A stretch of DNA of 39,212 bases, from NCBI GenBank assembly GCA_947623995.1, contig CANQIN010000005.1, positions 1 through 39,212 of the forward strand, read 5' to 3'. Below are positions 11,967 through 13,969 of the stretch, piece by piece. Every line of letters starts with the position of its first letter. Within the stretch, counting starts at the first letter, position 1. This stretch comes from an uncultured Bacilli bacterium (GTDB lineage Bacteria; Bacillota_I; Bacilli_A; RF39; UBA660). The notes beneath the pieces are model-generated. The model had not been told where the DNA came from. It was given only the letters and a program-made list of their open reading frames with translations, and ran no database searches. A program made the translations under genes and the position numbers.

Positions 11967-13298
11967 ATGATTCGAGCAGTACAAATAATAATTACCAAAA
12001 CAATTACTTTTATCTGTAAGTTATTTCATAAAAATGGTAGTGTTCTACCAGGGGCTTGGGCATATGTTTTAAATCCTCATGTGCTAGACACTATAAAATA
12101 TCCTAAATACGTTATAGGAGTTACTGGTTCAAGTGGTAAAGGCACTACTACTAATTTGATTTATCATATTTTAAAAGAATCAGGTGTTGATGTTGTCTAT
12201 AATTCATCTGGTAGTAATATTATTAATGGTATTATAACTTTAATATTAAATAATTGTAATTTAAAAGGTGAATTTAAACATGATGTTTTATTATTAGAGT
12301 TAGATGAAAAACATTTACACTTAGCTTTTAGGGAAAGCAAACTTACCCATTTAGTTATTACCAATATCACGAGAGATCAACCAGCTAGAAATGGTTCTCC
12401 CGATTTAATTTATAATGAGATTATGAAAACGTTAAACGGCAAGACGACTTTAATTATCAATGCTAATGACCCAGGATTATTAAAAGCCACTCTTACTTAT
12501 CCTGGTAAAGTTATTACTTATGGGATTAATAAAACCAAAGATTCTTATCAAAAATTAACTAATTATAATATTGATTATGCTTATTGTCCTAAATGTCATC
12601 ATAAACTAATCTATGATTTTTATCACTATGGTCACTTAGGAAATTATCACTGTCCTAATTGTGATTTTAATAATTTAAATTTAGATTATACCGCAGATAA
12701 AGTTGATTTAAAAAAACAAGAAATGACCATTAATAACCAACTTGTTCATTTAAATAAAGATATCCTATATACGGCTTTTGCTACTCTTGCCGCTTATAGT
12801 GTTTCAAAAGAAATCGGTTTAAGTGAAAAACAAATCTTATCTGCTTTAAACGTCCATCCAAATGACAGTAAAAGAGCTCATGAATATGTTTTAGATAACC
12901 GCAAAATAACAATGTTAGAAAGTAAAAACGAAAATTCTTTAAGTTATTTTCAATCCCTACAATATATTAAAAATGCCAGTGGTAAAAAATGTGTCTTACT
13001 TGGTTTTGAAAATGTTTCAAGACGTTATTCATATAATGATTTATCTTGGCTTTATGATGTTGATTTTGAACTATTAAATGACACCAATATCACTAATATT
13101 GTTTTAGTTGGAAGATTTAAATATGATGTAGCAACAAGATTAACATACGCTAATGTTGATGAAAAAAAATTTATCTTTGTTGATGATTTAAAAGATATGG
13201 TTAAAATTTTAAAGGAACAAACAACTGGTGATATTTATACAATGGTTTGTTTTGATATGACCGAAATACTTTTAAAAGAATTAAAGGAGGAAGCATGA
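11967..13298 (+). CDS. murT: MurT-like Mur ligase family protein (divergent)
   Basis: MurT with GatD amidates the D-Glu of lipid II to D-isoglutamine. This 443-residue protein has the family plan: N-terminal segment, Mur ligase ATP-binding core (VTGSSGKGTTT, 52-62; ELDE 111-114; NITRDQPARNG), a four-Cys zinc ribbon (C207, C210, C229, C232) and a C-terminal DUF1727-type domain ending with DLSWLYDVDFELL. Departures from usual MurT: the nucleotide loop reads GSSGKG instead of GTNGKT, the NPAG-like motif is NENS (321-324), and the ADGxDxSW region is YSYNDLSW. I chose the ATG at 11967 because GGAG lies 8 nt upstream; a longer frame from 11892 has none. ATGA overlap with the next gene. Confidence 0.85.
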   Translation: MIRAVQIIITKTITFICKLFHKNGSVLPGAWAYVLNPHVLDTIKYPKYVIGVTGSSGKGTTTNLIYHILKESGVDVVYNSSGSNIINGIITLILNNCNLKGEFKHDVLLLELDEKHLHLAFRESKLTHLVITNITRDQPARNGSPDLIYNEIMKTLNGKTTLIINANDPGLLKATLTYPGKVITYGINKTKDSYQKLTNYNIDYAYCPKCHHKLIYDFYHYGHLGNYHCPNCDFNNLNLDYTADKVDLKKQEMTINNQLVHLNKDILYTAFATLAAYSVSKEIGLSEKQILSALNVHPNDSKRAHEYVLDNRKITMLESKNENSLSYFQSLQYIKNASGKKCVLLGFENVSRRYSYNDLSWLYDVDFELLNDTNITNIVLVGRFKYDVATRLTYANVDEKKFIFVDDLKDMVKILKEQTTGDIYTMVCFDMTEILLKELKEEA

Positions 13299-13969
13299 AA
13301 ACATTTAAAATTGCTCATCTATATTATGATTTAATGAATCTTTATGGTGAAAGTGGTAACATCTTAGCTTTAAAAAAACATTTAGAAAAACAAAACTTAA
13401 AAGTTAATATAACTAATTTAAGTATTAATGATGAAATTGATTTTAATAAATATGATTTTTATTATTTAGGAAGTGGTAATGATGAAGCATATTACCTAGC
13501 TTTAAAACATTTAGAACAATATCAAAAAGAAATTAAAGACGCAATTAAAAATCATAAATTTTTCTTAGCAACTGGTAATTCTTTATGTTTATTTGGCGAT
13601 TTAAATATTTTAGATTTTAAACCTGAAAAATGTGAATTTAGAATTGTTGGTGAACAATCCTTTACTTTTAAAAATTTAGAAAATACCATAATTGGTTTTC
13701 AAAATCGTGATTATATTTTAAAACTAGTTAAAGAAGAACATTTATTTGAAGTAAAAAAAGGAACCGGTTATATTCCTAAAGCAATAGTTGAAGGTATTAA
13801 GAAAAACAATTTTTATGGAACTTTTTTATTAGGGCCTCTTTTAATTAGAAATCCTTTATTTACAGAATATTTAGTAAAAGAAATAATGAAATATAATAGC
13901 TTAGATTATAAAATTTATCATGATAAATGGGAAGAAAAAGCTTATGATGAATATCAAAAAAATTTTTAA
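13295..13969 (+). CDS. gatD: GatD-like type 1 glutamine amidotransferase lacking catalytic Cys and His
   Basis: The place and fold-level pattern match GatD, the glutaminase partner of MurT: start DLMNLYGESGNILALKKHL, then FYYLGSGNDEAYYLAL (usually GGGQD), and GTFLLGPLLIRNPLF near the end. However, the nucleophile motif normally like ICGGYQ is ATGNSLC (92-98), with Gly at 94 where the Cys is expected, and the usual HGP motif is LGP (Leu179 in place of His). The GFENHGG stretch is GFQNRDY. A Cys exists four residues later (C98) but without the usual elbow. Length 224 aa is close to GatD. AGGAGG and an ATGA overlap tie it to the murT-like gene. Probably a non-hydrolytic partner; see findings. 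Confidence 0.82.
   Translation: MKTFKIAHLYYDLMNLYGESGNILALKKHLEKQNLKVNITNLSINDEIDFNKYDFYYLGSGNDEAYYLALKHLEQYQKEIKDAIKNHKFFLATGNSLCLFGDLNILDFKPEKCEFRIVGEQSFTFKNLENTIIGFQNRDYILKLVKEEHLFEVKKGTGYIPKAIVEGIKKNNFYGTFLLGPLLIRNPLFTEYLVKEIMKYNSLDYKIYHDKWEEKAYDEYQKNF

Follow-up and report, generated by a model that had tools for sequence, protein, structure and literature searches.

The closest described relatives of the gene pair studied here are the subunits of the lipid II isoglutaminyl synthase MurT/GatD, with structures solved for Staphylococcus aureus (6GS2), Streptococcus pneumoniae (6FQB) and Streptococcus pyogenes (9SQ9). In S. aureus, MurT alone is inactive and GatD is needed with glutamine and with ammonia alike; replacement of GatD C94 by glycine abolishes the use of glutamine but leaves an ammonia-dependent amidation at pH 8.5, no ammonia being used at pH 7.5 (PMC3266927). 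For S. pneumoniae, contact with the ribose of ATP has been proposed for the KNP loop of MurT, which is the loop at K315-N316 in S. aureus (PMC6085368). Two more distant systems bear on the comparison: human carbamoyl phosphate synthetase I (CPS1) has likewise kept a class I glutaminase domain after loss of the nucleophile, and in cyanophycin synthetase (CphA) a single chain bears an ATP-grasp domain and a Mur ligase domain that act in turn (PMC11915815).

The stretch of 39,212 nucleotides analysed here, referred to as the window, comes from an uncultured Bacilli bacterium and carries a gene pair that we denote MurT*/GatD*. The pair resembles the MurT/GatD synthase in both subunit folds, gene order and gene overlap, and in the nucleotide and metal residues and the zinc ribbon of MurT; it differs in lacking Cys94 and His189, in its changed GGG and GFENHGG motifs, in a K-N loop two residues longer and in belonging to a separate clade. 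GatD* is about 30% identical to the solved GatDs. The likeness to CPS1 is a precedent for a subunit working with free ammonia, but CPS1 is a different synthetase in which the Cys has become Ser, whereas GatD* has lost the catalytic His as well as the Cys and has altered motifs in the pocket.

A GatD subunit without glutaminase residues

The original prediction held that the GatD-like subunit had lost its catalytic Cys and His, and both the codons and an alignment with S. aureus GatD bear this out: codon 94 (13574-13576) is GGT, coding for Gly, and codon 179 (13829-13831) is TTA, coding for Leu, and the two align with C94 and H189. The two pocket motifs are altered as had been claimed (Table 1), and the gene is indeed intact and of full length, its frame being open across all 224 aa. 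The coupling to a MurT-like partner was also read correctly, as the MurT* stop and the GatD* start overlap in an ATGA, with a GGAGG ribosome-binding site present. Against the NCBIfam GatD models, GatD* reaches an E value of 4e-25, yet 88.5 bits where 400 are needed for the equivalog; its AlphaFold2 model (pLDDT 94) matches S. pyogenes GatD with a Z of 29.2 and an rmsd of 1.8 Å over 221 aa and has the GatD fold.

Table 1. Positions in the window of the two genes and their diagnostic residues
Feature	Position	Strand	Remark
MurT*	11967..13298	+	443 aa; Mur ligase partner resembling MurT; open frame from TTG 11892
Nucleotide loop GSSGKGT of MurT*	12126..12146	+	Lys kept in 139/140 pseudo pairs
Four-cysteine zinc-ribbon region of MurT* (YCPKC...YHCPNC)	12585..12662	+	
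Loop K320-N-E-N323 of MurT*	12924..12935	+	Two residues longer than canonical MurT K-N
Asp358 of MurT*	13038..13040	+	At the third triad residue site (MurT D349)
GatD*	13295..13969	+	224 aa; fold of GatD, glutaminase residues absent
GSGND	13469..13483	+	Altered GGGxD motif of GatD
T93-G94-N95	13571..13579	+	Stands where GatD has I-C94-G
GFQNRDY	13694..13714	+	Altered GFENHGG motif, by alignment
Leu179	13829..13831	+	At the catalytic His189 site; LGP for HGP

The MurT* start is better set at the ATG than at the upstream TTG because relatives start near there. The protein has MurT_C and Mur_ligase_M domain matches but scores 185.5 of the 800 bits needed for the NCBIfam MurT equivalog; its AlphaFold2 model (pLDDT 86) has the MurT fold, with a Z of 37.3 to S. 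pyogenes MurT. Further features shared with MurT/GatD are the adjacent, co-oriented genes, the MurT nucleotide loop, the Glu and the zinc ribbon, of which C207, C210 and C229 are invariant across 23 MurT*. The nucleotide loop reads KG[TS] in place of KTT in the MurT* subgroup of the window. We take the longer K-N loop to resemble the YNANP spacing of MurF; searching the collected loci by pattern for MurF loops yielded none of use.

Selection was claimed to have kept GatD*, and the substitution rates agree: measured against five close relatives, GatD* has a dN/dS of 0.16-0.31 and MurT* one of 0.05-0.19, which shows purifying selection on both genes among near relatives. The shared replacements at the two catalytic sites, Gly94 and Leu179 in the window, are more than chance because they are common to about 110 relatives and to 140 of the 220 rows compared and dN/dS is low; on the same grounds, a recent pseudogene is ruled out.

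A clade of pseudo pairs

The compared set held 219 distinct GatD/MurT pairs, the one in the window included, which with S. aureus gave 220 rows: 140 of the type seen in the window (pseudo), 78 canonical including S. aureus and 2 mixed. A family-level search took in 145 genomes, class-level searches added further loci, and others were drawn from named metagenome assemblies with Bacilli, Clostridia or Lachnospiraceae in their titles; most of the compared genomes are metagenome assemblies, and claims of absence depend on assembly completeness. GatD-like genes were found in 60 of the 145 family genomes, 58 of them pseudo and two canonical (G023, G044).

At positions 93-95, pseudo pairs have T in 136, G in 139 and N in 129 of 140 cases, the elbow Cys of class I glutaminases thus being Gly in the window and in all but one pseudo pair, and canonical pairs have C94 in 78/78; the His189 site is L in 68, I in 62, T in five and S in three of the 140 and H in 78/78 canonical rows. 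Invariant across the canonical rows are C94, H189, G60, G61 and N148 of GatD and D349 and N267 of MurT; G60 and G61 vary among pseudo pairs, and the D349 site, at which the subgroup of the window keeps D, is D in 77 and N in 44 of 140 pseudo pairs against D in 78/78 canonical. Following the conserved MurT Lys (K315-N316 in S. aureus), the loop has four residues in 140/140 pseudo pairs and two in 78/78 canonical and both mixed pairs. The TGN and NNF..GP motifs of GatD* are conserved to the level of active-site motifs, and the ATP-binding and metal-binding residues of MurT* are kept in nearly all members of the clade. Two loci (L026 and L088), from genomes that each have two pseudo pairs (G086 and G113), encode a MurT* without some nucleotide-loop or Mg-binding residues.

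A tree had been proposed as a check for a separate clade, and in quick maximum-likelihood searches, unrooted and with the trait columns removed, the pseudo pairs formed one side of one branch, with SH-aLRT support of 99 for the joint data, 97 for GatD alone and 98 for MurT alone. The two mixed pairs (L253 and L254) have a canonical MurT loop and a GatD in which only one catalytic residue is lost, with Gly for Cys or Asp for His; as both fall within the canonical side of the tree with the short loop kept, single losses happen but do not yield the pseudo state. Judged from its sequence, the window pair belongs to an old and widespread group of MurT/GatD relatives in gut bacteria. A pseudo pair (KI236_RS07825/07820) is carried also by Vescimonas fastidiosa MM35, a cultured human isolate, and by an entry filed as a bacteriophage (L415, MT837974.1) that looks like bacterial DNA.

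A second, canonical murT-gatD pair, for which the original prediction advised a search, was not found in the window genome: the sole MurT_C match in its 92.8% complete assembly is MurT* itself. The remaining GATase_3 match (L003) is a different sort of ORF; it lies next to genes resembling those for DNA repair and has no adjoining MurT. Among 22 pseudo-pair genomes, a single MurT_C match occurs in 19 and two matches in three, and the second pairs in which GatD was read are likewise pseudo; Clostridia genomes with a match mostly have one GatD-like gene. The pseudo pair normally takes the place of the canonical one in the genome.

Association with an ATP-grasp ligase

A strong match to PF14397, an ATP-grasp ligase family, occurs in 46 of the 58 pseudo-pair genomes against five of the 87 others among the 145 family genomes; the Fisher p of 7e-21, uncorrected for phylogeny, overstates the evidence because the genomes, though of nearly as many genera, share descent. 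Physical linkage lends the co-occurrence separate support: PF14397 is fused to the N-terminus of MurT* in L110 and L356 and adjoins the pair in L363, L364, L365, L369, L216 and L224. In the order of its domains, ATP-grasp and then Mur ligase, the fusion is likened to CphA, which, unlike MurT*/GatD*, makes a storage polymer and has no GatD subunit. The PF14397 gene of the window genome follows a polysaccharide/MurJ-type flippase gene with 11 nt between them; elsewhere its neighbours include an EPSP-synthase family gene resembling MurA and BacA/UppP or SpoIID genes. A strong PF14397 match is missing from twelve of the 58 pseudo-pair genomes, and PF14397 was not found on the Vescimonas replicon searched, the chromosome of that isolate lying outside the collection. 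We found no solved structure with sequence likeness to the PF14397 protein, and our literature search found no paper naming the family. One locus (L402 3392-9923, from G058) has four clustered ATP-grasp (PF14397-like) genes beside apparent polysaccharide genes.

Gene neighbourhoods and cell-wall genes

The window pair has XerC-like, RNase HIII and HolA genes as neighbours, which are uninformative as to function. In other genomes, tight operons join MurT* and GatD* with an ornithine racemase and an arginase (L361 2769-6809), or follow a diaminobutyrate transaminase with MurT*, GatD* and an alanine racemase (L354 7749-12098); in L358 the pair is followed by a transaminase, in L362 it sits with an alanine racemase, and in L042-L044 and L048 it adjoins MurG-MurB-FtsQ. 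Three pseudo-pair genomes free of PF14397 (G086, G087, G105) have the pair with amino-acid genes (L361, L354, L362), a pattern of three cases noticed after the fact. The named amino-acid genes, counted together with PF14397, lie within 1.5 kb of 13/116 pairs against 0/48 (p = 0.011), the list of genes having been picked after looking.

No match to MurC, MurD, MurE or MurF was found in the window genome (G000) or in G021, G043, G058, G077 and G083, where PF08245 finds MurT* only. All six have FtsW/RodA-type and MraY-family genes, to which the window genome adds genes for MurG, FtsQ and PBPs; the combination suggests scavenged stem peptides or parts lost in assembly, and scavenged muropeptides have been proposed for RF39, the probable order of the window organism (PMC10868615). 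A relative of the window organism from the same genus has a MurE of the DNPR, meso-DAP type. Tandem MurE-like genes occur at L348 7607-10395 and also at L300, L301, L308, L309 and L312; in several of these loci the DNPR (meso-DAP) motif marks one gene and DDPH its neighbour.

For relatives whose pair goes with ornithine racemase plus arginase, or with a diaminobutyrate transaminase, the predicted product is group B peptidoglycan, in which a D-Dab or D-Orn bridge runs from D-Glu to D-Ala; no ligase for this D-Glu bridge was found in the literature searched. Leifsonia belongs to a family with group B walls, and the Leifsonia pair, known here from the plasmid copy only, is canonical, unlike the pseudo pairs. 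Group B as a general explanation is weakened by this and by the DAP-type MurE of the relative within the genus, whose wall need have no group B bridge.

Discussion

Just short of an even chance is what we would give to MurT*/GatD* being a non-glutaminase ligase complex that adds an amine, probably an amino acid, to the D-Glu of lipid II. The complex would be a heterodimer of the MurT/GatD type no longer drawing ammonia from glutamine, in which MurT* would use ATP to activate the alpha-carboxyl of D-Glu at stem position 2 of lipid I or II, and a directly bound amine, most likely that of an amino acid, would attack it. GatD* would be a dead but required subunit, its former glutamine pocket, remodelled, shaping the nucleophile site together with the longer MurT* loop, and the separate PF14397 ligase would very probably act in the same pathway; in some relatives, the amino acid may be ornithine (the D-form if racemised) or 2,4-diaminobutyrate. 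We prefer an amino acid as the nucleophile on three grounds: the MurT* loop is altered in all members, the pair is accompanied by a second ligase, and a diamino acid and a racemase are provided by some of the operons. Against this reading count the small number of pairs with such genes beside them, none of these pairs being in the subgroup of the window, and the twelve pseudo-pair genomes with no strong PF14397 match. The fuller picture, in which MurT*, the dead GatD* and PF14397 together build an amino-acid branch on the D-Glu and represent a class of enzymes not described before from Bacilli and Clostridia of the gut, is put forward tentatively.

The main rival, a possibility about which we are somewhat sceptical, is an ammonia-dependent lipid II amidase, in which MurT* would make D-isoglutamine from free ammonia and GatD* would be structural. 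The S. aureus C94G enzyme, carrying the very substitution seen here, still amidates with ammonia at pH 8.5 (PMC3266927), CPS1 without its catalytic Cys uses ammonia (PMC4655335), the canonical pair is usually replaced in the genome, and the gut is presumably a habitat rich in ammonia; yet the mutant took no ammonia at pH 7.5, and free ammonia leaves unexplained the longer loop in all members, the conserved TGN, the tie to the ATP-grasp ligase and the operons with diamino-acid genes. The original prediction had offered three functions, of which ammonia use and a new modification reaction survive; PF14397 co-occurrence and the diamino-acid and racemase operons tilt the balance towards the latter. 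The third, a purely regulatory subunit, has least in its favour, given that the active site of MurT* is altered wherever GatD* is. A GatD* without catalytic residues but with its fold kept could be a mere regulator or scaffold retained by inertia beside unchanged MurT* chemistry, but the parallel MurT* change in 140/140 and the conservation of TGN and NNF..GP like active-site motifs make this very improbable.

That the pair acts on another substrate than lipid II D-Glu, such as another lipid-linked carboxylate or a capsule precursor, we consider unlikely. The pair is kept in the six genomes with no MurC-F match found, and a flippase and PF14397 as neighbours would fit polysaccharides too; these genomes nevertheless have the wall genes listed above, those of the window being consistent with scavenged muropeptides, and elsewhere the pair adjoins MurG-MurB-FtsQ. 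Hardly credible at all is a residual glutaminase with another nucleophile: C98 of the window GatD* lies four residues from position 94, but aligned relatives mostly have E at this site and otherwise A, V, D or N, which rules it out as a substitute, and the catalytic His site is Leu or Ile in 130/140 pseudo pairs. The two outcomes named beforehand as contrary to the original prediction, a working C98 and frame decay in relatives, are thus not what we see, C98 not being conserved and general frame decay being absent.

Cross-linking is affected by the state of the stem D-Glu. Annotation pipelines name the genes of pseudo pairs as glutamine amidotransferase or as members of the Mur ligase family, and should the clade make no use of glutamine, the wall structure predicted for many uncultured gut bacteria is wrong. 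With the pair present in the cultured V. fastidiosa MM35, the question of its function can be tested. Our preferred reading, if true, provides a concrete candidate for an enzyme joining amino acids to D-Glu; if an amino-acid branch is indeed built, there would be undescribed cross-bridges or caps in gut Bacilli and Clostridia, and bridges of a group B-like kind, linked through D-Glu, would gain the type of ligase that has been missing for them.
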